DNA of 38,063 bases from a virus. The stretch covers positions 1 through 38,063 of IMG/VR virus record IMGVR_UViG_3300032326_001618; one strand, 5' to 3'. The notes below the pieces were generated by a model. The model worked only from the letters and a program-made list of their open reading frames with translations. It was not told the DNA's origin and ran no database searches. The translations under genes were made by a program, and so were the position numbers. Position 1 is the stretch's first letter; the number at the start of each line of letters is the position of its first letter. Shown piece by piece: positions 675 to 38,063 of the stretch.

Positions 675-3600
675 CTATCTACCGAAGATATAACGGATAC
701 CTAACTGAGCAGACCATACATCAAATACAGATGAATTGTATTGATATGAATCTCTAGCTAAGATAGTAGTACCATCTGTTAATCTTTGAGTTGCTAATCT
801 AAATGTTGGAACATTTGTAACTGCATCTCTGCTTACAAAGTTCAAGATTTGAGGAGCAGTTGCTCTTTGTGATATACCGAACTTATTATCAACCATGTTA
901 CCAAAGTTCAAGATATCAGCTCTGATTTGAAAAGCATTTCTCTTACCACCAATCTTAATAAAGATATCTTGTGCTACTGATAAATCGAATCTGTGTAAGT
1001 AAGGTAATAAACCACCATTTCTTTCAGCGTATTTACCATTACGAGTTTTTAAGTAATCGTCTTGGTTTACAAAATTCCAAAATGCAGCTTGTTGTTCTGC
1101 TTCTGTATACACTCTTGTACCAACTGTTAATGGTGCAAATCTGATTTCATTCCATTCTTTAGGAACATAAATTAAATCATTGTTATTTACTCTATCACCA
1201 TTTAAGTCACCTGCTACGATATAAGAGAATGGATTACCTTGTTGGCCTACATAACCTAAAGTGATTGTTGTAGCACCACCGTACTTAGAACCATACTCAA
1301 TTCTGTAACCTAATAAACCTACAAATCTATTTTTAACAAATGCATCTGCAAATGATAAATCTAAATTATTGTTACCTGCAATTGATAATGCTGATTGCCA
1401 AGAACCACTAGCAATTGAACCTGCACTCATAAAGTCTTTTGAGTTAGCAGTTGTCCAAGCGAATGAACCCCAGAAACCTTTTTGGTATGGTTTTTCTAAT
1501 TTCAATGTTAATGATTCGTGGAATGCACCATTCTTACTTGTAAGAACTGCTGCTCTTGAAACATTATTATTTACTCTAACTGTAGCATCAGAACCACCGA
1601 AACGAGGTCTGTTATCTACTCCACCTAAAGTTCCAACTGGAGCCTTTAAGTTAGCTTCGTAGTAATGAACTGCATTAAGTGTTTTATTATACAAATATTC
1701 AGCACTTGCTACTAATCCGAAAATTGGTAACTTTTGATCAACTGCTAAGTTAGTTTTCCAAACTTGTGGAAACTTATAGTTAGGATCTGTTAATGCTAAA
1801 TCAAATGTAGATGGTAAAGTTGGAGTTGATGGGATAAAATATTTGTTAGGATCTGCAGTAAAGCCATATTGAGCTGCAGCAGCACCACTAACATCAATAA
1901 ATCCAGTTAACACACCATTATTACCGATTTGGTTAGATAAGAATACATAAGGAGGACGACCTGTAAATAATCCAGTACCACCTCTAAATTGTGTTTTCTT
2001 TTGTCCTTTCACATCGTAGTTAAAACCTAATCTTGGTTCAAACAATACTTGCGTTTTAGGCATTACACCTGTATTCCATTTTTCACCGTTTGCAAATGTC
2101 ATTGCAGTGATTGCTGGATTTTCAAGTGCTGTGTTTTCGAAATCAATAATATTTGCTCTAACACCAAATGTTAATTTTAAATCTCTAGTTGCGTTATACT
2201 CATCTTGTAAGTATAAATCCAATCTATTTGATTTTAAAGTTTGCATTGGTTCAATTGCTCCTGGTAATGCAGAATATCTGAATTGGAAACGAGCAGGTGC
2301 AAATGTAGATGGTTTACCACCATTAGCTAATGATTGATTAGCCGCAGTATAGAAATCAGCTAAACTATTGAAAATATAAACACCATTTGAAGCAGGGAAG
2401 AACAAGTTATTTGATTGATACTTTTGGAAGTTGAAACCACCAACTAATGTATGCTTACCAGCATATTTTGTTAAGTTGTTAGTTACATTAAAAGTATTGT
2501 AATCTAATTTATTACCTGGAGTAAATGGATCGAATCCAACTGATGTTAATGTGGTTGAACCTTGTAAGATATCAATTGTTGGGAACATTTGGCTCATATA
2601 ACCTCTGTTCTCAATTTGCTTATCATAAGAAACAATTAAGTTATTGTATAATGTATTTGAAATCTTAGAGTTTAATTCAATTACCGCTGAACGAGTGTTA
2701 TCCTGAATAGTGTAACCACTATTTTGGAAACTCATTGCGTTAATGTTTCCTGTTCTATTACCGAAACCTGCAGATTGTGAATTTGAAATTCCAATTTGTG
2801 CTTCAGAATTATGGAATACATAACGTGCAGTTAATTTATTATTTGCGTTAATGTTCCAGTCAACACGAACTAAGAATTTATTAGATGTGTTTGTGTTAGA
2901 ATAACCTTCAAATGGACCAGTTTCATAATTAAACTTGTCTTTCATGAATTTAGAAAGATCAGTTAATTGTTGAAAAGTTGGTCTTGATACTTGTGAACCT
3001 GCTAATGGAGAACCTGTAGAGATCCAAGTTGTACCTGGTTCAGTTCTTTCAATTGATTCATAGTTACCAAAAATAAACAATTTGTTTTTAATAATTGGAG
3101 CGCCTAAACGGAAACCTTGTACTTTCTCATCAAATTTAGATGGAGTTACTTTTGTTCCTCTTGCATTGTTACCTACATAACGAGATGAATTATCACGTTG
3201 TGTTTGATAAACACTACCTTCAACTTCATTTGTACCTGATCTTGTTACAGCGTTAATACCAGCACCTGTAAATCCAGATTGACGAATGTCAAATGGTGCT
3301 ACGTTAACTTGTAATTGATCAATCGCGTCTAATGAAATAGCGCTTGCTCCAGTTCTACCACCTGCTGATGCAGATGAACCTAAACCGAAGTTGTTGTTGA
3401 ACTGAGAGCCATCAATTGTAAAGTTGTTCATACGAGAGTCTTGAGCACCAAATGAAGAACCATTACCGAAAGGATTGTATTTGGTAATACCTTCGATTGT
3501 TCTAGCACCTGTAATAGGGATGCTTTGTAATTCTCTACGTGTAAACTGTTGGGCTGCTCCTGTTTTTTCTTTAGAGAACAGACCAGATTTAGTACCTGTT

Positions 3601-3953
3601 ACAACTACTTCTTTTAATGCAGTTGCTTCATTTACTAATTTAAAATCTACGTTTGATGCTACACCTAATTGAGTGTTTACATCTTTTTCCTCACCTTTTC
3701 TAAATCCTACATACGAAGCATGGATTGTATATGGCCCACCTACTCTTACAGCAGGTAAAACATAAACACCATTCTTGTTTGTAATCGATTTGTACTCAGT
3801 GCCTGTTGGGGTGTGTGTTGCATGAATTACAGCACCAACCAACACTTCTTGTTTTTCGTTCTTAACAACACCAGAAATAGATGAGGTGGTAACTTGACCA
3901 AATCCCATCAAAACTGATACTGAAAGAAGTAACGATAAAATCGCTTTTTTCAT
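675..3953 (-). CDS. TonB-dependent outer-membrane receptor, Oar-like, carried by the phage
   Basis: This is a 1092-residue intact protein. I start it at the ATG at 3951-3953 because MKKAILSLLLSVSVLMGFGQ is a clean signal peptide; the frame stays open further upstream, but that stretch runs through the terminator hairpin. Residues about 24-108 form a carboxypeptidase-regulatory-like beta domain, typical of Bacteroidetes receptors. A TonB-box-like KEVVVTG (114-120) follows, then a plug domain (about 128-260, including a NNFTIDGSQFNN segment) and a long beta-barrel ending in GIRYIFGR. The family sits in the outer membrane and imports ligands using TonB energy; many members are phage receptors. 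Neighbours on both sides are phage genes, so this looks like an acquired host gene. It has a terminator-like hairpin in its leader and another after its stop. Role in the phage is unknown: receptor exchange, superinfection control or nutrient uptake are all possible. Confidence 0.92.
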   Translation of the reverse strand: MKKAILSLLLSVSVLMGFGQVTTSSISGVVKNEKQEVLVGAVIHATHTPTGTEYKSITNKNGVYVLPAVRVGGPYTIHASYVGFRKGEEKDVNTQLGVASNVDFKLVNEATALKEVVVTGTKSGLFSKEKTGAAQQFTRRELQSIPITGARTIEGITKYNPFGNGSSFGAQDSRMNNFTIDGSQFNNNFGLGSSASAGGRTGASAISLDAIDQLQVNVAPFDIRQSGFTGAGINAVTRSGTNEVEGSVYQTQRDNSSRYVGNNARGTKVTPSKFDEKVQGFRLGAPIIKNKLFIFGNYESIERTEPGTTWISTGSPLAGSQVSRPTFQQLTDLSKFMKDKFNYETGPFEGYSNTNTSNKFLVRVDWNINANNKLTARYVFHNSEAQIGISNSQSAGFGNRTGNINAMSFQNSGYTIQDNTRSAVIELNSKISNTLYNNLIVSYDKQIENRGYMSQMFPTIDILQGSTTLTSVGFDPFTPGNKLDYNTFNVTNNLTKYAGKHTLVGGFNFQKYQSNNLFFPASNGVYIFNSLADFYTAANQSLANGGKPSTFAPARFQFRYSALPGAIEPMQTLKSNRLDLYLQDEYNATRDLKLTFGVRANIIDFENTALENPAITAMTFANGEKWNTGVMPKTQVLFEPRLGFNYDVKGQKKTQFRGGTGLFTGRPPYVFLSNQIGNNGVLTGFIDVSGAAAAQYGFTADPNKYFIPSTPTLPSTFDLALTDPNYKFPQVWKTNLAVDQKLPIFGLVASAEYLYNKTLNAVHYYEANLKAPVGTLGGVDNRPRFGGSDATVRVNNNVSRAAVLTSKNGAFHESLTLKLEKPYQKGFWGSFAWTTANSKDFMSAGSIASGSWQSALSIAGNNNLDLSFADAFVKNRFVGLLGYRIEYGSKYGGATTITLGYVGQQGNPFSYIVAGDLNGDRVNNNDLIYVPKEWNEIRFAPLTVGTRVYTEAEQQAAFWNFVNQDDYLKTRNGKYAERNGGLLPYLHRFDLSVAQDIFIKIGGKRNAFQIRADILNFGNMVDNKFGISQRATAPQILNFVSRDAVTNVPTFRLATQRLTDGTTILARDSYQYNSSVFDVWSAQLGIRYIFGR

Positions 3954-3971
3954 CTGTGTTTTGTTTTGGTT

Positions 3972-4002
3972 AAAAAAAAGAGCGGAGACAATGCCCCCGC
4001 TC
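3972..4002 (-). terminator. Strong intrinsic terminator or attenuator in the receptor leader
   Basis: The minus strand forms a 10-bp GC-rich stem (GAGCGGGGGC with GUCUCCGCUC, two G-U wobbles) with an AUU loop, followed at once by eight U residues. It is the best intrinsic terminator in the window. It lies only 18 nt before the receptor ATG, so a promoter between it and the gene is hardly possible. Either it ends transcription from the primase/nuclease genes, or it acts as an attenuator that receptor transcripts must read through. Confidence 0.8.
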
Positions 4003-4064
4003 AAAGCGTTATATATATTTGTATATATTTGTTGTAACAATATGAAAATTTTTGGTTTTCAAAC

Positions 4065-7295: not shown

Positions 7296-8057
7296 TTATC
7301 TTTGATTACCTAAGTATACATCAACAAAATAACTGTTTCCTAGAGTAGCTGTAGTAAATACACCACCACAAGAAGTTTTATTTTCTGTAGGAGCTAAAGC
7401 TGTTTGGTAATAAGGGCTACAAGCATCTGGTATACTATTAATGTAATTGTATATAGTTGATAATTGGTAACTGAATGCTTTAACAGTATGTAATGCTACA
7501 ACATAGAATTGAGTACCGTTTGGTATGCTGAAAGTGTATGAACTATTACTTGTTAATGGAGATCCAATTTGTGTAATAGTATTTCCGTTAAATAATGTTA
7601 CACTACCTGCGTTACCTGAATCTATTGTTAAGTTAACTGTAATGTTAACTAATGGAATCGTTGGTGAAGGGGTAATAGAAGGGGTTGGTGTAGGAGTTGT
7701 AGTTATCGTAGGAGTGATTGTTGGTGTTCTAGTTGGGTCTGGAGTTCGTGATGGTGGGAGTGGAGATTGTGTTGGTGTTGGTGATGGAGATGCGTTTGGT
7801 GTTAGTGATGGTGTTGGTGATGGAGATGGTGGGATTCCCACAATGTTTTTAATTACAGTTCGTGTCGCACAAGCAGGATTTACATTCACTACTGAAATTT
7901 GAGTTGTTGCATCAGAAACGTTTGTTTGAAATCCTTGTTGAAGTGATGTTAAACTCAAATTAGAAGCAAGTTCTTGGCCTGTATTATAGTTGTAGACGTT
8001 ATAAGGTCCTGGTGAAGTAACACTTCCTGTAAGCTGTACGTAAATTATCTGTGCCAA
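7296..8057 (-). CDS. Pro/Ser/Thr-repeat stalk protein (short form)
   Basis: A 253-residue protein in three parts: an N-terminal beta-like domain (1-74), a Pro/Ser/Thr-rich stalk (about 76-135, repeats such as TPSPTP and RTPDPTRTP) and a C-terminal beta-like domain with two cysteines. The only usable start is a TTG at 8055-8057, two codons after an in-frame stop, so the start codon is unusual. The [10 protein letters not shown] pattern recurs in the larger protein at 15846-17843. I infer an extended fibre or decoration protein. The stalk would be a natural target for O-glycosylation by the enzymes encoded next door. Host-binding specificity cannot be read from sequence. Confidence 0.7.
7653..7832. 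repeat. Degenerate repeat encoding a Pro/Ser/Thr stalk
   Basis: About 180 bp of imperfect short repeats coding for PT/PS-rich residues 76-135 of the protein at 7296-8057. It is related in wording to the longer array at 16203-16913, suggesting exchange or common origin. Confidence 0.7.
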
Positions 8058-15845: not shown

Positions 15846-17843
15846 TTATCCTTCTTGAACAGTTACTACTACAGTACTATTCTTGTTTATACTCATAGTG
15901 TAAGATTTTTGTACTTGATCACTAGCAGCAAAGTTTTGTACATCCATTTGATTAGCATCTAAATACCATATTACATAACCTACATCAGCAGCTATACCAT
16001 CAGGTGCTACTCTATCTACATAGAATGTTACATTAATATTTGATCCATCAGATGGTAAGTTAGGAACATTGAACGTAGATGAATTGAAAGTTCCGTATAC
16101 AGTTGCTTGGTTAGCTCCTGTAGATCCTTCACTTGAATAGAATTTATAAGCAATGGTAGAAGCAAATACATTTACTGAGCCGGTAGCCTGTATTGTTACA
16201 TTTGGTATTGTTGCTGATGGTGTAACTGATGGTGTTCTAGTTGGATCTGGTGTTCTAGATACAGATGGTGTTCTAGTTGGATCTGGTGTTCTAGATACAG
16301 ACGGTGTAGGTGTTAATGATGGTGTACTTGTTGGATCTGGTGTTCTAGTAATACTAGGTGTAGATGTTACCGATGGTGTTCTAGTTGGATCTGGTGTAAC
16401 TGATGGTGTTCTAGTAATAGAAGGAGTAGCAGTTACTGATGGTGTTCTAGTTGGGTCTGGTGTTAATGATGGTGTTGCTGTAACTGATGGTGTTCTAGTA
16501 ATAGAAGGTGTTAATGACGGAGTTGCCGTGATTGATGGAGTTCTAGTAATACTAGGAGTTAATGAAGGTGTAGCCGTTAATGACGGTGTTGCCGTTAATG
16601 ATGGTGTTCTAGTGATGCTAGGAGTAGACGTTATAGATGGTGTTAATGATGGAGTAGCAGTTATAGATGGTGTTAATGATGGTGTTGCTGAAATTGATGG
16701 TGTTAACGATGGAGTTGCAGTTATAGATGGTGTTCTAGTAACACTAGGTGTTAATGATGGAGTAGCCGTTAACGATGGAGTAGCCGTTATAGATGGAGTT
16801 CTAGTGATGCTAGGTGTTGCTGTTACACTTGGTGTTGCGGTAACACTAGGTGTTAATGATGGTGTTCTAGTTACTGATGGTGTTCTAGTTACTGATGGAG
16901 TAGGTGAAGGTGGGATTAATCTTACTGCAATATCAAATTCACAATCAGGAGCACCTACATTGAATCTAATTAAAGCCTTATTACTAGTAAGAACAGTTCC
17001 ACTAAACTGAGCATCTACTGTATAAAAAGCATCATATGTTCCTGGTTGGAAGAATGGGTAAGGACTAGAACTAGAAACCATACTAGCTATAGTATTAAAA
17101 CTACCTGTAAGTTTAATAACACTGCCTGATAATGAACCAGATAATGCTATAGAACTTGTTATTAAAGAACCAAATCGAGCTAAATCATTAGTTAATATAC
17201 TTCCAGTTTTATCATAATCACTTGCCTTAACATTAATAATATCAGCTACAGCAAGTGGAGGAAGAGGAAACATATTTTGATAGTCCTGGTTAGTAATTAC
17301 TGCTATACCTTGTGGGTAGAATATATTACCAATATGAGTATTACCACCATTATAAAGATTACCATTACCATCATCTGTTACATAATATGCTGAAGATGAT
17401 AATACAAAATTGTAAGGTAAAACTTTATTACCATATACTTCTTGATTAATTGTTAATACACGAATACCTTCATTAGCTCCTGTAGGAAAATATTTTTTAC
17501 AGTTAGGGTTTTCATCATAAATAAAATATGATGAAGTTGCTAATTGTCTAGATGCTGATTCGTAAAATATAGAATTAGCAAGAGATGATGTATCTAAAAG
17601 AGAACCACTAAATTCATGATAGAATAAGTGATTAATTGAGTGATAAACTAAACTTTCATATTGACCCTCTGTTACAGGATCCATAATAGAATCAAAGCTA
17701 CTAGTTAAATTAGTACCTTTGTATATTGTTACATAACTATCGTTTTCAGGATATCCTAACGTATAGGATAAATTCCATTGCTTATTGGCAGCATATGATA
17801 CCTGCGTAACATCCGATTTGTTTAGTTGTTTGAATGATGACAT
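15846..17843 (-). CDS. Large Pro/Ser/Thr-repeat stalk protein, probable virion fibre or decoration
   Basis: A 665-residue protein with three parts. Residues 1-310 form a Ser/Tyr-rich N-terminal region like other tail proteins of this phage. Residues about 311-547 are a long array of five-residue units TPS[VIL]T with variants RTPDPTRTP. Residues 548-665 form a C-terminal beta-like domain with no cysteines. A rigid proline-rich stalk between two globular ends suggests a fibre or whisker that holds a tip domain away from the virion. Almost every second or third stalk residue is Ser or Thr, so dense O-glycosylation is possible, and the glycan genes follow directly. It is preceded by structural genes (6-nt gap). 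Confidence 0.75.
16203..16913. repeat. About 710-bp array of 15-bp-type repeats (TPSxT units)
   Basis: The array encodes some 47 tandem five-residue units in the large stalk protein. On the plus strand GATGGTGTTCTAGT and close variants recur throughout. The units are imperfect but in frame throughout, which keeps the reading frame open through slippage in steps of 15 bp. Copy number may vary between relatives. Confidence 0.85.
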
Positions 17844-32093: not shown

Positions 32094-32107
32094 TATAAAT
32101 ATAAATA
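32094..32107 (-). promoter_or_regulatory. Double TATTTATA-type motif before the 31681-32079 gene
   Basis: The coding strand shows two overlapping copies (TATTTATATTTATA), ending 14 nt before the ATG of the small helical protein gene, in the 29-bp gap after the sigma factor gene. Confidence 0.45.
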
Positions 32108-32108
32108 A

Positions 32109-32891
32109 TTAAATTTTTATATACCCATGCTCATAATATTCATTATACAGTCGAACACGCAATATATCCAACTTTTTAATAATCTTAGTAATCTGAGGGG
32201 TGGATACATCTGTCATTTCGCGAATATAGATGTATAATGCTTTTTTATTAAATATCTCTAGCGTTTCACGCTTACGAAATAATTCAATAATAGCATCTGC
32301 TGTCTGAGCGTCGTGTTGTTTTGGGAATAGGGTATGGATATGTTTATCAATATACATTATATACTGATTGATGAATAGATTTGGAGAGTGCATTTCATCA
32401 ATAGCATCCATTGATTCATATAGTTGGGTTTTATCCTCATCTATATCTTCAACATCAGCTTTTTCCTGTAGCTTTTTATAATTATTTTCATTATAAACAA
32501 TAAGGTAACGTTTAGCAATAGTTCCAAAGTAACTAAATGCTTTACCCTTTTCAGCCTTATATAAGTGTAATTTTTCAAGCAAAAAAGTAATAACTTCATG
32601 CTTCAGTTCCTCAATTGTATCTGTATCAGTATAGTAGAACTTAAACGTATGAATAATATTTTCGGCTAATTTATAAAAGCCATATTTAATACGCTCATTA
32701 TAAATGCGATTACGCTCAGCCATATCTTCAGTAATGAGATATTCCACAATCGCATCCTCAGTATCTTGAGTAAAATAAATTCTTGGTTCTTTTGGTTTAC
32801 GTTTACGAGGTTTACCGCGTTTAGTTAACGCTATCGTTTCGTCATCATCACCGAATATATCGTAATCGTAATCTTCTTCATAGTATGCCAT
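32109..32891 (-). CDS. gp55: Late-transcription sigma factor, gp55-like
   Basis: A 260-residue protein related to T4 gp55 by an N-terminal acidic and then basic region (KRGKPRKRKPKEP), a region 2-like helical part (FTQDTEDAIVEYLITEDMAERNRIYNERIKYGF, HEVITFLLEKLHLYKAEKGKAFSYFGTIAKRYLI) and a C-terminal helix-turn-helix-like end (TDVSTPQITKIIKKLDIL). Gp55 binds host core RNA polymerase and directs it to late promoters, aided by the sliding clamp. T4 gp55 is 185 residues; this one has extra termini. It is the natural candidate to recognise the AT-rich motifs described elsewhere. There is a 53-nt gap before it. Confidence 0.7.
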   Translation of the reverse strand: MAYYEEDYDYDIFGDDDETIALTKRGKPRKRKPKEPRIYFTQDTEDAIVEYLITEDMAERNRIYNERIKYGFYKLAENIIHTFKFYYTDTDTIEELKHEVITFLLEKLHLYKAEKGKAFSYFGTIAKRYLIVYNENNYKKLQEKADVEDIDEDKTQLYESMDAIDEMHSPNLFINQYIMYIDKHIHTLFPKQHDAQTADAIIELFRKRETLEIFNKKALYIYIREMTDVSTPQITKIIKKLDILRVRLYNEYYEHGYIKI

Positions 32892-32944
32892 CTGTTGTCT
32901 TATTTTTAATAGACATGATACGAAAAGAAAGGAACGTAACCAAA

Positions 32945-33226
32945 CTAGTTCTTAATAGAAGAATTAAATTCACTAATCATGTTTTGGATCTCTCTTAAGT
33001 TAGTAAAGAAAGTTCCTACTTCATCATCGGCTTCAAAAGCTCCTAATCTATCTAACTCTTTTAATTTAGCATCCGAATTAGCAACTATAATACTAATAGC
33101 ATCTAAGTACTCTTGCTGTTTAATAACAGCCGCTTCTAATGCATTATTACGTCTAACTAATAAAAAGGCACCAATAATTGCTAATTCAATAATATGAATT
33201 AAAACCACCCAAAATGCTATCATCAT
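32945..33226 (-). CDS. Small membrane-anchored protein
   Basis: A 93-residue protein with one N-terminal membrane helix (residues 3-24, IAFWVVLIHIIELAIIGAFLL) followed by positive residues (RR) and a cytoplasmic helical region rich in acidic residues. No family recognised. It could be a small inner-membrane accessory or an anti-host factor. It is 3 nt from the upstream coiled-coil gene, so they are likely co-transcribed. Confidence 0.6.
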   Translation of the reverse strand: MMIAFWVVLIHIIELAIIGAFLLVRRNNALEAAVIKQQEYLDAISIIVANSDAKLKELDRLGAFEADDEVGTFFTNLREIQNMISEFNSSIKN

Positions 33227-33229
33227 AAA

Positions 33230-33427
33230 TTATCCTCTAAATTGTTGTTCAAAATCATCGGGCTCAACGGAAATAATTTCACGTATAGTCTCGATTTGTT
33301 CTTTTAATTGTTCAATAGTTTCAAGAATAGAATCTTGAGCTACTCCTCTATTTACTTGCAATTGGATTTTACCAGCAATCGCTTCTAGTTGTGTTAATTT
33401 ATTTAACGCATTATCTTTGTATCTCAT
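33230..33427 (-). CDS. Small coiled-coil protein
   Basis: A 65-residue protein, almost entirely helical with leucine/isoleucine heptads (KLTQLEAIAGKIQLQVNRG, TIEQLKEQIETIREII) and an acidic C-terminus. No known family. It starts an AT-rich gene pair with the membrane protein gene and has an ATATTTATA motif 14 nt before its ATG. Confidence 0.55.
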   Translation of the reverse strand: MRYKDNALNKLTQLEAIAGKIQLQVNRGVAQDSILETIEQLKEQIETIREIISVEPDDFEQQFRG

Positions 33428-33441
33428 AGTATATGTTTATA

Positions 33442-33450
33442 TATAAATAT
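33442..33450 (-). promoter_or_regulatory. ATATTTATA motif before the coiled-coil gene
   Basis: Coding-strand ATATTTATATATAAAC, ending 14 nt before the ATG. The 150-bp region 33428-33578 upstream holds no convincing gene. Confidence 0.4.
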
Positions 33451-33911: not shown

Positions 33912-34169
33912 CTAGATATCCAAGTTTTTTAGGTCCTCTAACCAATTGTTTTCGGTCCTATTATCCCACCTTACACCTACACCATCAACATATTTGCGAA
34001 TATAAGTTGGTCCGGTTTGTGTAATGTCACGATAATAAGAAATAACTTCCCATTTAGGATCAAGTGGATCGGGAGTGAGAGTATAAGCGTGAGCTTTCTG
34101 GCATACGAATGGATCATTTATATCCAGTAACTCGTAATTAGACTGATCGTCACGTGTGATATTTTTCAT
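33912..34169 (-). CDS. Hypothetical protein, 85 aa
   Basis: A small, acidic and aromatic protein (MKNITRDDQSNYELLDINDPF, then PKWEVISYYRD and WDNRTENNWLEDLKNLDI). No family recognised. Its leader carries the TGGCAC box at 34207-34212 and an AATAAGTT-ATG context shared with other small genes here, which supports it as a real gene of the accessory region. Confidence 0.5.
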   Translation of the reverse strand: MKNITRDDQSNYELLDINDPFVCQKAHAYTLTPDPLDPKWEVISYYRDITQTGPTYIRKYVDGVGVRWDNRTENNWLEDLKNLDI

Positions 34170-34178
34170 AACTTATTT

Positions 34179-34212
34179 ATTTTACTGGGTAATATAGGTA
34201 AGAGTCGTGCCA
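34179..34212 (-). promoter_or_regulatory. TGGCAC upstream element C
   Basis: Coding strand: TGGCAC (34207-34212), then 22 nt to TAAAAT (34179-34184), then AAATAAGTT and the ATG of the 85-residue protein gene. It aligns without gaps with elements at 35585-35618, 36688-36721 and 36944-36977. Confidence 0.55.
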
Positions 34213-34218
34213 CAACCA

Positions 34219-34386
34219 CTAGTTTGTTGAACCCGATGTTGGTTGAACAACATTTTGTTGTAGTACGGCCGCGTCCCATTCTTCAAGTGTAAGACCGTGT
34301 TGTTTTGCTGTTTCCTCACGCAATTGACGCGCGTATATTTCAAACGCTTCTTTGGTTAATAATATTTCGCCGGTGTATTTTTTCAT
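34219..34386 (-). CDS. Hypothetical protein, 55 aa
   Basis: Starting at the ATG at 34384-34386 (MKKYTGEILLTKEAFEIYARQ), this is a short helical protein ending in a Gln/Ser/Thr-rich tail. The frame extends further upstream, but only through promoter-like, repeat-rich sequence. No family recognised. It ends 7 nt before the TGGCAC element of the next unit. Confidence 0.5.
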   Translation of the reverse strand: MKKYTGEILLTKEAFEIYARQLREETAKQHGLTLEEWDAAVLQQNVVQPTSGSTN

Positions 34387-34452
34387 ATCAATACATATAA
34401 TGTATATACTTTGTCGTGACAAAAAAATCGTTTAAAAAGAGATTTTGAGATT

Positions 34453-34671
34453 TTACAAAGTGGGTGCAAAGGGGTTATTTTGGAATTGTGGATATGCGTA
34501 TATACTGTCGGGGCGTAGAGATCGTATTTTCGTTGAGAATACACCGGGTGCGCTCCTTTTTTGTGCATGCCGTCGATGGACCGCAATTGGCATGGGAGCA
34601 TTCCGCGCACGCTCCGCTATCGATCCGCTAGCAACGACAAAAGACCAACTACCGTCAGCCTTTTTGTACAC
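34453..34671 (-). CDS. Uncertain short reading frame, GTG start
   Basis: A 72-residue frame with a GTG start inside the second half of a direct repeat (VYKKADGSWSFVVASGS ... Arg-rich middle). It follows the small membrane gene by 23 nt. Arg and Ala are unusually frequent and the codons are GC-rich, unlike its neighbours. A competing 97-residue frame exists on the plus strand (34445-34738). I cannot tell whether either is real. Confidence 0.2.
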   Translation of the reverse strand: MYKKADGSWSFVVASGSIAERARNAPMPIAVHRRHAQKRSAPGVFSTKIRSLRPDSIYAYPQFQNNPFAPTL

Positions 34672-34689
34672 GCGCGATCTTTTTGTACA
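34660..34689. repeat. Tandem direct repeat CTTTTTGTACA x2
   Basis: Two exact 11-bp copies 19 bp apart (two helical turns, near-perfect operator spacing) just after the stop of the small membrane gene. A paired binding site for a regulator is possible. Confidence 0.5.
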
Positions 34690-34694
34690 ACGCG

Positions 34695-34793
34695 TTACTC
34701 GTGCATATTTTTTGTATGGTCATACTCTAGCACGATAATCTTAACCACACTGTAAATACCGATGAAGATCAATGTTAATAGTAATGTTTGCAT
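34695..34793 (-). CDS. Micro-protein with one membrane helix, 32 aa
   Basis: An ATG at 34791-34793 opens a frame of 32 residues: MQTLLLTLIFIGIYSVV, then KIIV, then a polar tail EYDHTKNMHE. The first 21 residues form an obvious membrane helix with a lysine at its end. The ATG lies 10 nt past the stop of the EF-hand gene. Short size makes it easy to miss, but composition and position speak for a real single-span membrane micro-protein. Confidence 0.5.
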   Translation of the reverse strand: MQTLLLTLIFIGIYSVVKIIVLEYDHTKNMHE

Positions 34794-34803
34794 ATACTGG
34801 TTA

Positions 34804-35007
34804 TTATTTATTTAATTTTACCTCGTCCATCATACGTTTGTATTCAGCAGGTGATTCATCACCGTAGCCTTCACCTTCATCACCCATACCTAATTCATTC
34901 AGTATTTCGATCGCCTCGGATTTACTTACCCATCCATTACCATCTACATCTACTAGGTTACCTACATAGTACATGTCATTCATGTTCATTAATTCGTTTA
35001 CGTTCAT
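34804..35007 (-). CDS. EF-hand calcium-binding micro-protein
   Basis: A 67-residue acidic protein with a canonical EF-hand loop at residues 20-31: D20-V-D22-G-N24-G-W26-V-S28-K-S-E31, where positions 1, 3, 5, 7, 9 and 12 are correct calcium ligands. The C-terminus is Glu/Asp-rich. The domain binds Ca2+ in bacteria and eukaryotes; a single EF-hand might dimerise or bind a partner. The gene sits 2 nt after the 53-residue gene in a packed micro-operon. Role in the phage is unknown. Confidence 0.65.
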   Translation of the reverse strand: MNVNELMNMNDMYYVGNLVDVDGNGWVSKSEAIEILNELGMGDEGEGYGDESPAEYKRMMDEVKLNK

Positions 35008-35009
35008 AT

Positions 35010-35171
35010 TTAATTGTTTAATTGTGTTATCAATTTATTACCTTCGTCTTGACTACCCACGGGTATCATTCTGTTGTTTCCCAACACGTACCATCCATCG
35101 TAACGTTCTTCCACTCGTAGTGGACCACTTAAATCGAATGACTCACCGTCTGTAAATGTTAATTTGCTCAT
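35010..35171 (-). CDS. Hypothetical protein, 53 aa
   Basis: An ATG at 35169-35171 opens 53 residues: MSKLTFTDGESFDLSGPLRV, EERYDGWYVL, then GNNRMIPVGSQ and a short helical end. The pattern looks like a small beta barrel. It lies 2 nt before the EF-hand gene and 2 nt after the 29-residue frame, so it reads as one unit of a tight operon. No family recognised. Confidence 0.55.
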   Translation of the reverse strand: MSKLTFTDGESFDLSGPLRVEERYDGWYVLGNNRMIPVGSQDEGNKLITQLNN

Positions 35172-35173
35172 TA

Positions 35174-35263
35174 TTATATTTTAATTGTGTGATATTTTTT
35201 ATTATTATATTTCAATTCGAACTTACCGTATACATCTATATATTGCTCTATCGTTATCATCAT
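35174..35263 (-). CDS. Possible micro-protein, 29 aa
   Basis: From the ATG pair at 35258-35263 the frame codes for MMITIEQYIDVYGKFELKYN then NKKYHTIKI, ending 2 nt before the next start. The stop-start spacing fits an operon. A caveat is that a TGGCAC-like element (35287-35292) would place its -10 position on top of this start, so the frame may be inside the leader instead. Confidence 0.35.
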   Translation of the reverse strand: MMITIEQYIDVYGKFELKYNNKKYHTIKI

Positions 35264-35292
35264 GACATGAATATACGAACCGAACTATGCCG
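35258..35292 (-). promoter_or_regulatory. TGGCAC-like element I
   Basis: CGGCAT at 35287-35292, then the same CGGTTCGTAT-like spacing as the element at 35585-35618, but the -10 position reads CATGAT. It overlaps the end of the 96-residue gene. Weak copy of the shared element. Confidence 0.35.
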
Positions 35293-35575
35293 TAGCACGT
35301 TTCGGTTGGTATTGGTTATTATATTGCTCGATGATCGGTTTCATGTGTGCATCGATCGCATCAGCGTCCGCTTTGGTCTTATCGCTCGACCAGTTCAACA
35401 CACATGTATCATGTGAGCTGCGATGCCAAGTGATCGTATCGTCTGCACTGGTGTAATCGTGTGGGGCGAATAATACGGTACCATCACCCTCGTCATCGTG
35501 TATTTCGTATCCCATTGACTCAGCAAACGCGTACGCTGCTTTATTAATTGCACTTCTAATTTCTTTCTTGTTCAT
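35285..35575 (-). CDS. Hypothetical acidic protein, 96 aa
   Basis: A 96-residue protein, mixed alpha/beta: MNKKEIRSAINKAAYAFAES, then an acidic DDEGDGTVLF region and HRSSHDTCVLNWSSDK, then a helical KADADAIDAHMKPIIEQYNN and a basic tail. No known family. Its upstream TGGCAC element and terminator hairpin (35632-35655) define a clear transcription unit. Confidence 0.6.
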   Translation of the reverse strand: MNKKEIRSAINKAAYAFAESMGYEIHDDEGDGTVLFAPHDYTSADDTITWHRSSHDTCVLNWSSDKTKADADAIDAHMKPIIEQYNNQYQPKRATA

Positions 35576-35584
35576 GTTTTAATT

Positions 35585-35618
35585 TTTATAGCATCAAGAT
35601 ACGAACCGTATTGTGCCA
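35585..35618 (-). promoter_or_regulatory. TGGCAC upstream element A
   Basis: TGGCAC (35613-35618), 9 nt, CGTATCTTGATG, TATAAA (35585-35590), then 9 nt to the ATG. It shows the full pattern and the strongest TATAAA in the set. Confidence 0.6.
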
Positions 35619-35631
35619 GACACATTAGAAG

Positions 35632-35655
35632 GAGCCCGGGTAGAAACCCGAGCTC
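35632..35655 (-). terminator. Hairpin after the 35683-36069 gene
   Basis: Minus-strand RNA pairs GAGCUCGGGU with ACCCGGGCUC (10 bp, one wobble) around a UUCU loop. A U-run is missing, so it may be a weak or factor-dependent terminator, or an mRNA end-stabiliser. Confidence 0.55.
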
Positions 35656-35682
35656 GATCAATTAAAAATTAAAAGTATGAAC

Positions 35683-36069
35683 CTAATTTAGAGCTACTTT
35701 TCCGCTCAATATATCTACCTGGGTACCTTCAACTGTGAAGCAGTCCCATTCATTTTCATTATTATAAACGTACACGTAATCTACCCCGTAATCACAACCC
35801 ACGTTCATTAGCTGGTCTGGATCAACGTCCCTAGCTTCAACCATACCATACGGTTCGTTTCGATCGCGGTGATATGCTTTGCACGTAGCTGGTGTTTCAG
35901 CTAGCGAGCTCAGATCCCCCAATTCCAACAGATCAAATACTGCGGACGGGGAAGTGTAATTATCCACTAGCAGCTGACCGTTATGCTCTGGGTAACCATC
36001 CCAGTGGCAATAAATAATCTTAGTGATCCCATTATCCAAATTCATCCCAATCAATGATCTTGTAGCCAT
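35683..36069 (-). CDS. Conserved phage protein, MATRSLIG family
   Basis: A 128-residue protein starting MATRSLIGMNLDNGITKIIYCHWDGYPEHNGQLL. This N-terminal pattern (MATRS, then IYCHWDGYPE) is frequent in proteins of T4-like and other large phages that lack an assigned function. Later segments include LLELGDLSSLAETPA and a Tyr/Asn-rich end. Leader shows AAAAGTT-ATG. Probably an early or middle accessory gene. I cannot give a mechanism. Confidence 0.65.
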   Translation of the reverse strand: MATRSLIGMNLDNGITKIIYCHWDGYPEHNGQLLVDNYTSPSAVFDLLELGDLSSLAETPATCKAYHRDRNEPYGMVEARDVDPDQLMNVGCDYGVDYVYVYNNENEWDCFTVEGTQVDILSGKVALN

Positions 36070-36118
36070 AACTTTTATTTTAATTTTAATTTAATAACGT
36101 GAAGGTAAGTAATAATAT

Positions 36119-36343
36119 TTAGCCTTCCAAATAAACATGCTGCTTTACTCCATGTAAGCTACTCACTTTCAGCTCACGCATCCAGACAAACTGGTCTGCT
36201 GGACGATCACTAGGGACGTATGTGTGCTTCGGTTGCTCAACGCCGTATTCCAAATTGATCGGCTCACCTTGCACTCGCATTCCAAACATAAACGTTAATA
36301 AAAAGCTAATAATAGTTTCTTTAATATAAAATACTTTACTCAT
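36119..36343 (-). CDS. Hypothetical protein, 74 aa
   Basis: A 74-residue protein with a short hydrophobic N-terminal stretch (IKETIISFLLTFMFGM), too short and polar for a confident membrane helix, followed by a polar part with PSDRPADQFVWMRELKV. No family recognised. Its leader has TTAAGTT-ATG and lies just after the tandem hairpins of the AT-hook gene. Confidence 0.5.
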   Translation of the reverse strand: MSKVFYIKETIISFLLTFMFGMRVQGEPINLEYGVEQPKHTYVPSDRPADQFVWMRELKVSSLHGVKQHVYLEG

Positions 36344-36361
36344 AACTTAAGTTTAATAATG

Positions 36362-36401
36362 AAAAAATGATCCCCTCACCACACCAACAGGCTCGGGGAT
36401 C
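36362..36401 (-). terminator. Intrinsic terminator after the small AT-hook gene
   Basis: GATCCCC and GGGGATC form a 7-bp stem; on the minus strand it is followed by ATTTTTT. A second hairpin (GGGTT/AACCC, 36402-36417) lies between this one and the stop codon. The pair ends the small AT-hook gene. Confidence 0.65.
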
Positions 36402-36418
36402 GGGTTACTCCTAACCCA

Positions 36419-36661
36419 CTAAGCCATCACTGACTCAGATTTAGTTTTCTTCGGTGCGCCACGCTTGATCTCAATTCCGGCTGCGATCTTAGCTGCCTTA
36501 GCCGCTAATTTAGCTTGTCTAGCACTTGTCTGGCTAGCTGGGCGGCCTCTACCAATTGATAATCCTTGAGCTGCTCTTTGAGCACGCGCATCTAATCTTG
36601 CTTGACGAGCTGATCCAGCTACTACTGGACGACCTCTTTTACCTGTTTTTTCTACTGACAT
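36419..36661 (-). CDS. Small AT-hook DNA-binding protein, internally duplicated
   Basis: An 80-residue, basic protein. It carries AT-hook cores KRGRP (8-12) and GRGRP (37-41), plus a degenerate KRGAPKK (66-72). About 29 residues repeat: RP-x4-SARQAR ... IGRG and RP-x3-TSARQAK ... IKRG, so the protein arose by a tandem duplication. AT-hooks bind the minor groove of AT-rich DNA, as in HMGA proteins. No other domain is seen. It is preceded by the TGGCAA-type element (36688-36721). In an AT-rich genome it could organise DNA or steer transcription. Confidence 0.7.
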   Translation of the reverse strand: MSVEKTGKRGRPVVAGSARQARLDARAQRAAQGLSIGRGRPASQTSARQAKLAAKAAKIAAGIEIKRGAPKKTKSESVMA

Positions 36662-36687
36662 AACTGTTTGTTTTTTTTATTTTAATT

Positions 36688-36721
36688 ATTATATTGTAAA
36701 TGTCGGGACAAAACCTTGCCC
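36688..36721 (-). promoter_or_regulatory. TGGCAC-type upstream element E
   Basis: GGGCAA (36716-36721), then spacing equal to elements A and B, then TATAAT (36688-36693). It precedes the small AT-hook gene with a longer leader (26 nt) than the other copies. Confidence 0.5.
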
Positions 36722-36728
36722 CAAAAAA

Positions 36729-36932
36729 TTATTTAGTTAACGCTTTAGCCATACTATCACTACCACATCTCACCCCAGCGTGGAACATGTACAAAACATC
36801 TATTGGGCTAGTTAGCTCAAACTTGATCTGGTTTTGTTCCTCATTATACTCATCCACAATAACTCTGTCTGCACCTAACATTTCAACGATGTAAGGAACT
36901 CTATCCTTACTAATACACAATTCTATTATCAT
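36729..36932 (-). CDS. Hypothetical protein, 67 aa
   Basis: A 67-residue alpha/beta protein (MIIELCISKDRVPYIVEML, then an acidic EYNEEQNQIKFELTSPIDVL, then FHAGVRCGSDSMAKALTK). No known family. Its leader has AATAAGTT-ATG and the complete element B. The C-terminus ends directly before element E of the next unit. Confidence 0.5.
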   Translation of the reverse strand: MIIELCISKDRVPYIVEMLGADRVIVDEYNEEQNQIKFELTSPIDVLYMFHAGVRCGSDSMAKALTK

Positions 36933-36943
36933 AACTTATTAAT

Positions 36944-36977
36944 TTTATACCATCAATGTACGCACAAAACAGTGCCA
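36944..36977 (-). promoter_or_regulatory. TGGCAC upstream element B
   Basis: TGGCAC (36972-36977), TGTTTTGTG, CGTACATTGATGG, TATAAA (36944-36949), then 11 nt to the ATG. It aligns base for base in length with element A. Confidence 0.6.
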
Positions 36978-36988
36978 CACAACAAAAA

Positions 36989-37639
36989 CTAGCGTGTTGC
37001 TTTAGGTCGACCCCTGCGTCCGCCCGATCTGGCTCTGGTTGCTGCTTTAGCTGCGGTTGCGGCTGCTACCTGAGCTGTGGACAAAGCCGGGCGCCCGCGT
37101 TTACCTCCACTAGTGGTCTTTACCGTCTGGGGCTTCGCGATCCCAGAAGCCGGTCTACCACGCTTACCTCCGCTACGCTGCGCGCGCAAAACACGTTCCG
37201 CTTCGCGTGCTGCCTTCACTGCTGGATCAATTGCTGGTCTACCCCTGCGGGCCCCCTCCACCTTCTCCTTCGGTGGTTTAGAACCGCGCTTCAAAGCACG
37301 TTCACGTTGCGCCTGGGCTTTCTCTGCTTTACGCATCATTTTGTCCAATGTTTTCTTATGTTTAATAACGGCTGGGTGCAAAATAACTTGATCGAGATCG
37401 TAGCAACGGATGCCACCAGACTCATCACGCACCTCATATCCACCGTTGGGCCAAAAAGGAGTACCTGGTTCGTGTCGCTTGATGAGAAAAAAGAATAAAC
37501 GCTTCTCATAAAAAAATGGAGCGGGTAAAACACGTTCACGGGGTTTGGGGCTGGCTAACACTTCCTCCACATCACTATATGTTAGGTATGTACCCAACTT
37601 CGCACCACCCACAATAAAATCTTTTTCAATAACTTTCAT
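36989..37639 (-). CDS. Large AT-hook protein with four hooks
   Basis: A 216-residue basic protein. Residues 1-95 form a folded domain of unknown family (aromatic, with VLPAPFFYEKRLFFFLI). From about 96 on it is Lys/Arg/Ala-rich with four AT-hook cores: RRGRPA (131-136), KRGRPA (159-164), KRGRPA (180-185), RRGRPK (208-213). The last three are preceded by SGG. DNA binding in the minor groove is likely; several hooks suggest bridging or bending. The 3' half is GC-rich (Arg/Pro/Ala codons CGC, CGT, CCC) against an AT-rich background, a sign of different origin or of strong amino-acid bias. First gene of the accessory block as transcribed. Confidence 0.75.
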   Translation of the reverse strand: MKVIEKDFIVGGAKLGTYLTYSDVEEVLASPKPRERVLPAPFFYEKRLFFFLIKRHEPGTPFWPNGGYEVRDESGGIRCYDLDQVILHPAVIKHKKTLDKMMRKAEKAQAQRERALKRGSKPPKEKVEGARRGRPAIDPAVKAAREAERVLRAQRSGGKRGRPASGIAKPQTVKTTSGGKRGRPALSTAQVAAATAAKAATRARSGGRRGRPKATR

Positions 37640-37648
37640 AACTTTTTA

Positions 37649-37681
37649 ATTATACATAAATTTAAGAAAAAAACTTTGCCA
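37649..37681 (-). promoter_or_regulatory. TGGCAA upstream element F
   Basis: TGGCAA (37676-37681), then a poly-T stretch, then TATAAT (37649-37654), then AAAAAGTT-ATG of the large AT-hook gene. The spacing is 1 nt shorter than in A, B, C and E. Confidence 0.5.
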
Positions 37682-37770
37682 AACAAAACATTACTAAAAC
37701 AAAAAAAAAAAACAAAAGCAAATTGGTAGCAAGTTACGAAAAAATTTTGACTAAACCAAATACTTGTTTT

Positions 37771-37980
37771 TACTACAAAACTTAGTACTACAAATAGTAG
37801 TCAGCAACTACAAAATGTAGGTATATACTGTCGATAAAAAAAGGTGTGGAGTGGCGCAGGAAAAAAATATGGGGTCGCAACACAACCATCCCCATACACT
37901 CGCTACATTACATATACGTTCGCTACTAAGCGGTGTAGTTACTACAAAACTACTACACGTCTACTACACGTTGTAGGTAC
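37771..37980. repeat. CTAC repeat cluster (iteron-like)
   Basis: ACTACAAA occurs at 37772, 37787, 37807 and 37941. The last is followed by ACTACACG at 37952 and 37963, so three copies repeat with an exact 11-bp period. Inverted partners give short palindromes (GTAGTTACTAC at 37935-37945, CTACAAAATGTAG at 37808-37820). The 11-bp phase puts binding sites on one helix face. Confidence 0.6.
37868..37896. repeat. Inverted repeat TATGGGG/CCCCATA
   Basis: Seven-bp arms with a 15-base loop between the two groups of CTAC repeats. No U-run follows on either strand, so an operator is more likely than a terminator. Confidence 0.4.
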
Positions 37981-38011
37981 TTGACACACAAAACTATATT
38001 AGGTGGGTGAC

Positions 38012-38054
38012 AAAAAAATCGCGTTTACCGCGCAAAAAATGCGAGATAAACGCG
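38012..38054 (-). terminator. Intrinsic terminator of the gene beyond the right edge
   Basis: CGCGTTTA and TAAACGCG (8-bp arms, 19-base loop with an inner CGC/GCG pair) are followed on the minus strand by seven T residues. It would end a minus-strand gene whose coding part lies to the right of the window. Confidence 0.6.
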
Positions 38055-38063
38055 TTACTCTTA

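Follow-up and report, generated by a model that had tools for sequence, protein, structure and literature searches.

The early region of actinophage phiC31 carries repeated promoters that are combined with terminators. Middle promoters of phage T4 have a box at -30 which replaces the -35 element through the proteins MotA and AsiA (PMC6024815). In cluster K mycobacteriophages, start-associated sequences (SAS/ESAS) form an asymmetric repeat just before the start codons of non-structural genes. This repeat is rare in host genomes, lies 3-7 bp from the start codon, resembles a ribosome-binding site and is also accompanied by inverted repeats in about half of the cases (PMC3203893). In the Bacteroidota, the -7 element of Flavobacterium johnsoniae is T-12 A-11 H H T-8 T-7 T-6 G-5 (PMC6847099). 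Here we describe an element repeated before small genes in a viral contig fragment, IMG/VR record IMGVR_UViG_3300032326_001618 (38,063 bases, 32% G+C; the whole stretch is called the window). We estimate a probability of about 0.7 that it is a multi-copy early promoter of a small-gene block, used by a clade of large contractile-tailed Bacteroidota phages and read by the host RNA polymerase. Its motif, copy number, spacing and conservation, its contrast with hosts, its hairpins and the division into two motif classes are established from sequence.

The closest cultured relatives are the Flavobacterium phages vB_FspM_immuto (Immutovirus, 160 kb; here immuto), with 47% identity for the baseplate wedge protein. 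Nearly all real genes of the window lie on the minus strand. The small-gene block (33.5-37.7 kb) is followed by a 260-aa gene and then by baseplate, tail and other genes; the block is also present, whole or partial, in eight IMG/VR contigs. The literature that we searched describes the transcription strategy of large T4-like Bacteroidota phages little, and a search of partial coverage found no paper on promoters of Immutovirus-like phages.

An element repeated before small phage genes

The consensus on the gene strand is a weak TT(G/T)G, N3, G(G/T)CA, N10, C(G/A), TAYATT(C/G/T)ACG(G/T), TATAAAATTAA and ATG. We collected 103 non-redundant copies from dozens of IMG/VR contigs. They stand at a nearly constant distance from the small genes that follow them; in 64 copies, 42-44 nt separate the first G from the first ATG. 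With up to three mismatches, the pattern GGCAN10CNTANATTNACGNTATAA gives more than 100 matches in 28 relatives against 1 for the reversed pattern. A search for an exact pattern identifies 40 stretches in the viral collection, and 28 of the contigs found in this way contain more than 100 copies with up to two mismatches, while the reversed pattern gives 0. Twelve Bacteroidota genomes (~40 Mb) yielded 2 matches against 4 for the control. Enrichment before genes elsewhere, on which the original prediction had made its promoter proposal depend, is strong in relatives, with a near-fixed distance to ATG and a single orientation. In the 179-kb relative G028, 20 of 22 matches fall within 48.4-60.6 kb, immediately before a gp55-like sigma gene and the structural genes, and the replication genes of this phage are without the motif.

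The window by itself is much less informative. TGGCAM-N11-TANNTTNATG with up to three mismatches has 33 matches there against 36 expected. The motif is too degenerate for the window alone to give significance, and it is the relatives that settle the reality of the element. We scored the window with a weight matrix derived from 60 sites of the relatives, the window being excluded, and used 100 shuffled windows as a null. The best score of a shuffled window averages 2.9 bits and never exceeds 11.2. With this relatives-only matrix, four of the six sites noted in the original prediction reach 23.5 to 42.2 bits, all above the shuffled maximum.

Anatomy of the element and contrast with host promoters

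In an alignment of 81 sites, TT(G/T)G is weakly conserved at -7 to -4 from the first G, and is followed by GGCA, A5, G6, T/C7, T13, C14, G/A15 and TAYATT. Downstream of TAYATT come C/T/G, then A, C, G, G/T and TATAAAATTAA. The invariant part is TAYATTNA, and the core TAYATTNACG ends ~16-18 nt before ATG in most copies. Among 57 cores gathered without reference to the upstream box, GKCR lies at exactly -16 from TA in 50. TTG peaks at -23/-22 from TA in 15 of these cores and is invariant in 22 immuto sites.

When TAHHTT is aligned with the host -7 element, the phage copies read A-5 C-4 G-3 and GGCA would occupy -28 to -25, in a numbering that follows from this alignment. Transcription would be expected to start near the A of TATAAA. 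A is present at -5 in the 81 clade sites, but the collecting pattern favoured A at this position; independently of that pattern, wherever TAHHTT precedes a phage gene, -5 is also most often A. TATAAA itself was rejected as a -10 element: the cultured immuto keeps TATATTTAG but carries TATCAATAATT in place of TATAAA, and the leader would nearly vanish. A promoter of the extracytoplasmic function (ECF) type was rejected by eye, the spacing from GGCA to CGT being too short.

Counts before genes, which rest on simple open-frame gene calls with expected values from shuffles, separate phages from hosts. TAHHTTTG is frequent before host genes (76 against 12.7 expected in Flavobacterium laiguense, 26 against 6.1 in a Sediminibacterium genome), whereas upstream of phage genes its count stays around or under the chance level (0 against 2.6 in immuto, 16 against 12.1 in the GGCA clade, 2 against 3.5 in relative G015 and 3 against 2.9 in relative G007). 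Conversely, the phage forms are enriched in phages, with 24 TAHHTTTAGR against 1.0 in immuto and 50 TAHHTTNACG against 1.9 in the GGCA clade, and neither form is enriched in the hosts.

Copies in the window

The original prediction described six minus-strand sites with one common ungapped layout. All six sequences were found in place, and four score above the null with the matrix, but the layout does not extend to all of them. The strongest copy, site 36976 (36943..36983, 42.2 bits), precedes gene 36729-36932, with a predicted +1 near 36948 and a leader of ~15 nt. Site 35617 (35584..35624, 36.3 bits) lies before gene 35285-35575. At site 35291 (35258..35298, 35.8 bits) the predicted +1 coincides with an ATG (35263) and the transcript could therefore lack a leader; a possible leaderless gene of 29 aa (35174-35263, minus strand) has as its ATG the predicted start of this site. 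Site 36720 (36687..36727, 23.5 bits), before gene 36419-36661, has the -7 core variant GACATT, and similar CCGA variants are kept in relatives.

The fifth noted copy, site 37680 (37647..37687), before gene 36989-37639, reads GGCAAAG...TAAATTTATG and is weak (5.8 bits); the orthologous gaps in eight relatives carry mostly strong copies. The sixth, site 34211 (34178..34218), before gene 33912-34169, is aberrant, with a spacer one base shorter and CCC for ACG. It falls outside the ungapped layout and is not recovered by the matrix because TATATT begins one base nearer to GGCA; at standard spacing 7 of 18 consensus bases are mismatched. This short-spacer variant is itself conserved in several relatives. 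A weak seventh copy that the original prediction did not include, site 36123 (36090..36130), lies before gene 35683-36069. Its score of 8.6 bits is by itself within the null range; TTATCTTCACG / CTACATTTACG are kept in the orthologous gaps. All seven copies are on the minus strand.

Proposed sister promoters and spacer hairpins

The cultured immuto carries AGTTGC...TTC(G/A)TATATTTAG(G/A)TATCAATAATTAAAA or close forms 29 times on the plus strand and once on the minus strand, for the most part upstream of small genes in the 60-77 kb region. Examination of 22 of these sites showed TTG in the same place and no GGCA. In G007, GTCANAATC occupies the GGCA position and forms a GTCA box. Since the TAHHTT core is kept with a GTCA box in G007 and without a box in immuto, the downstream core is common to these phages and the upstream box clade-dependent.

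A hairpin occupies the spacer in 26 of the 103 copies. Its stem sequences differ from copy to copy, and pairing is much stronger between the arms of one copy than between arms taken from different copies (score >=18 in 20% vs 3%; mean z ~7). Several immuto spacers have a hairpin followed by a T-run. These hairpins may be terminators of the upstream gene. As an explanation of the whole element the hairpin was rejected, since the 70 copies that have none conserve GGCA just as well.

A candidate late sigma factor and a second motif

The first large gene past the block (32109..32891, minus strand) encodes a 260-aa candidate late sigma factor with a predicted gp55-like fold, 95-99% identical in the nearest relatives. 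The best structural match of its model is T4 gp55 (7d7c_F, Z 10.2, 119 residues, root-mean-square deviation 5.3). The other listed matches are nearly all sigma factors, which suggests a sigma region 2 fold in a model whose confidence (predicted local distance difference test, pLDDT) is only 68. Foldseek gave no PDB match below 0.001, and the profile of the candidate gave no match to PDB sequences. Similarity to Sigma70_r2 is weak (best E 1.8e-4, all matches below the curated cut-off), with one match per record in 7 of 11 records, that of the window being this gene; similarity to phrog_1740 is also weak (best E 0.005). The candidate contains about 60 extra residues in some relatives, and two others show a gap of ~180 bases at the place of this insertion (L047:3634-4596, L082:3731-4678, and also L049 and L055). 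Relatives show strong conservation of the gap before the sigma gene (32892-32960, minus strand; TTTGGTTACGTTCCTTTCTTTTCGTATCATG), possibly a promoter of a third type.

The second motif, ATATTTATA, is a candidate late promoter. It lies at 33442..33450 (minus strand) before 33230-33427, and further minus-strand copies at 32094, 28952, 25443, 19531, 8078, 4065, 652 and 33840 precede structural and other genes. The window has 10 occurrences where 4.3 are expected; nine of them are on the gene strand, and the motif is enriched before genes in relatives. In G028 it is found before the structural genes located after the sigma gene. The partition between the two classes is not absolute, because ATATTTATA occurs once inside the early block and also near some genes of the replication region. 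On the opposite strand it is similar to the T4 late box TATAAATA.

A proposed reading and its rivals

For the start and timing of transcription, the polymerase, the function of GGCA and termination, we infer the following scheme. The host RNA polymerase would read the element through the part that it has in common with host sigma-A promoters, TAHHTT with a weak TTG 19-20 nt upstream of it. The phage departs from the host by N-6 A-5 C-4 G-3 in place of T-6 G-5 and by the G(G/T)CA box in the spacer, 16 nt upstream of TA, near -28. This box could make an extra contact with the host enzyme or serve as the site of a phage activator, like the MotA box in T4. Transcripts would start near TATAAA and have A-rich leaders of ~15 nt without a Shine-Dalgarno sequence, and the spacer hairpin in about a quarter of the copies may stop the transcript that arrives from upstream. 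The gp55-like sigma encoded downstream of the block would then shift the polymerase to the ATATTTATA promoters of the structural genes. No multisubunit RNA polymerase was found in 11 phage records, while every control genome matched, and we count this in favour of reading by the host enzyme. The corresponding search for a single-subunit polymerase gave no match in the phages but none in the control genomes either and is uninformative.

Several points weigh against this proposal. Early promoters of T4 conform closely to the host consensus (PMC6024815), whereas the phage copies are without TTTG, which argues against reading by an unmodified sigma-A. TTG at -33 is weak in this clade. The uniform orientation is weak evidence, because most genes of these phages are on one strand, and a role in translation is also conceivable for the conserved downstream TATAAAATTAA.

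The weak -33, the near-invariant GGCA and the altered -7 end make a middle-type promoter, dependent on a phage activator or sigma-appropriating factor that binds the GGCA box and also alters the -7 preference of the polymerase, a serious rival, possible if clearly short of an even chance. The situation is reversed in immuto, where TTG is invariant and GGCA absent, and the box varies by clade above a constant core as described above. In T4 middle promoters, too, a box at -30 takes over from the -35 element (PMC6024815). Phage genes show no upstream enrichment of TAHHTTTG, and the RGRP protein encoded at 36989-37639 is present in phages with the box and was not found in immuto. However, no activator was identified, the first genes must be transcribed by some means and the analysis found no further class that could be early, and the G028 replication genes are without the motif. 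More tentatively, a phage factor might bind G(G/T)CA at -28 and shift the -7 preference from TTTG to NACG, in a sigma appropriation evolved independently of T4 MotA/AsiA with a box varying by clade; this we regard as less likely than not. The original prediction had proposed an early or middle promoter or else an operator coordinating the block. Enrichment and promoter anatomy uphold its promoter half. An operator at which a repressor would shut off the block is very unlikely: the GGCA box does lie within the region that the polymerase would cover, but 70 of the 103 copies are without a dyad. The dyad-bearing copies differ in stem sequence, which fits a hairpin and not a single protein site, and a palindromic operator was rejected for lack of a common dyad. 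We give little credence to an element of the mRNA leader that would act as RNA or in translation, similar to the start-associated sequences. The near-fixed ATG distance and the conserved A-rich stretch would agree with it, but the conserved bases fit a -33/-7 geometry, the core ends well upstream of ATG, and A-rich upstream sequence is ordinary in Flavobacterium (PMC6847099). Recognition by the phage's own sigma factor is equally improbable. Its gene (32109-32891) is the only sigma-70-like gene found by our search of the relatives examined; it is nevertheless placed after the block, beside late genes, its nearest structural match is the late sigma gp55, and a separate ATATTTATA class precedes structural genes.

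The motif is a direct marker of predicted early genes in many uncultured phages. The contrast with the host -7 element poses a question that a cultured phage makes testable, namely whether host sigma-A acts unaided or the phage alters the specificity of the polymerase. Should the host read the element unaided, it would be a promoter candidate for Bacteroidota genetics.

The small-gene block and other features of the window

The first gene of the block (36989..37639, minus strand) encodes a 216-aa protein with four RGRP (AT-hook-like) repeats. It is present in GGCA and GTCA phages and has no match in immuto; its predicted structure was of low confidence and was not used. An 80-aa RGRP-motif protein (36419..36661, minus strand) shows 69-96% identity across eight relatives. 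The repeated RGRP motifs of both proteins resemble eukaryotic AT-hooks. A third small protein (128 aa; 35683..36069, minus strand) belongs to phrog_1987, of unknown function. Long non-coding stretches at 34400-34780 and 37650-38063 contain repeated GACA(A)GTATATAC close to T-rich runs.

Outside the block, the minus strand encodes a 1121-aa TonB-receptor-like outer-membrane beta-barrel protein with a carboxypeptidase-regulatory domain (675-4040), located on a phage contig and with its nearest cellular relatives in Sediminibacterium (71% identity). The host is uncertain within the Bacteroidota, because this gene points to Sediminibacterium while the cultured relative infects Flavobacterium. Proteins at 7296-8057 and 15846-17843 (minus strand) carry long Pro-Thr-Ser repeats (PTPSITPTPS-like), and a Zeta-toxin-like P-loop kinase lies at the contig end (3-650, minus strand).

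Comparison with known systems

Sigma-54 promoters (-24 GG / -12 GC) have TGGCAC in common with the element but there is no TTGC at the required spacing, the conserved T13 C14 being one base off the GC position. TGGCAC-N5-TTGCW matches the window at chance level (12 against 11.4 expected). A sigma-54 promoter was therefore rejected, in agreement with the misfit pointed out in the original prediction. The likeness to SAS lies in an asymmetric repeat near starts, partly with inverted repeats and rare in hosts. The phage element does not lie 3-7 bp from the start codon and its conserved part has a promoter geometry. In phiC31 the early region likewise has tandem promoter copies separating small early genes, and some of these copies are combined with hairpins that have no T-run; host, phage type and sequence differ.

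T4 early promoters likewise occur in many copies before small early genes and have conserved bases outside the host core. They match the host consensus strongly, however, which the element described here does not. Closer in organization are the T4 middle promoters, with a phage-specific box above a conserved -10 core and a weak -35, in T4-like phages with a late sigma. As in these promoters, a box replaces the -35 element at a fixed distance (GKCR at -16 in 50 of 57 cores), a likeness that is formal only. The sequence and position of the box and the -7 end differ, and no MotA or AsiA homologue was identified, no search having been aimed at either. Compared with Bacteroidota sigma-A promoters (sigma-ABfr; TTTG at -33, TAHHTTTG at -7), the phage has N-6 A-5 C-4 G-3 for T-6 G-5, an extra near-invariant GGCA and a weak -33, and does not conform to TAHHTTTG. 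It has in common with them the TAHHTT core and, as far as the predicted phage leaders go, short A-rich leaders without Shine-Dalgarno sequences; the TTG peak 19-20 nt upstream of TA, seen in 15 of 57 cores, may be a further likeness.

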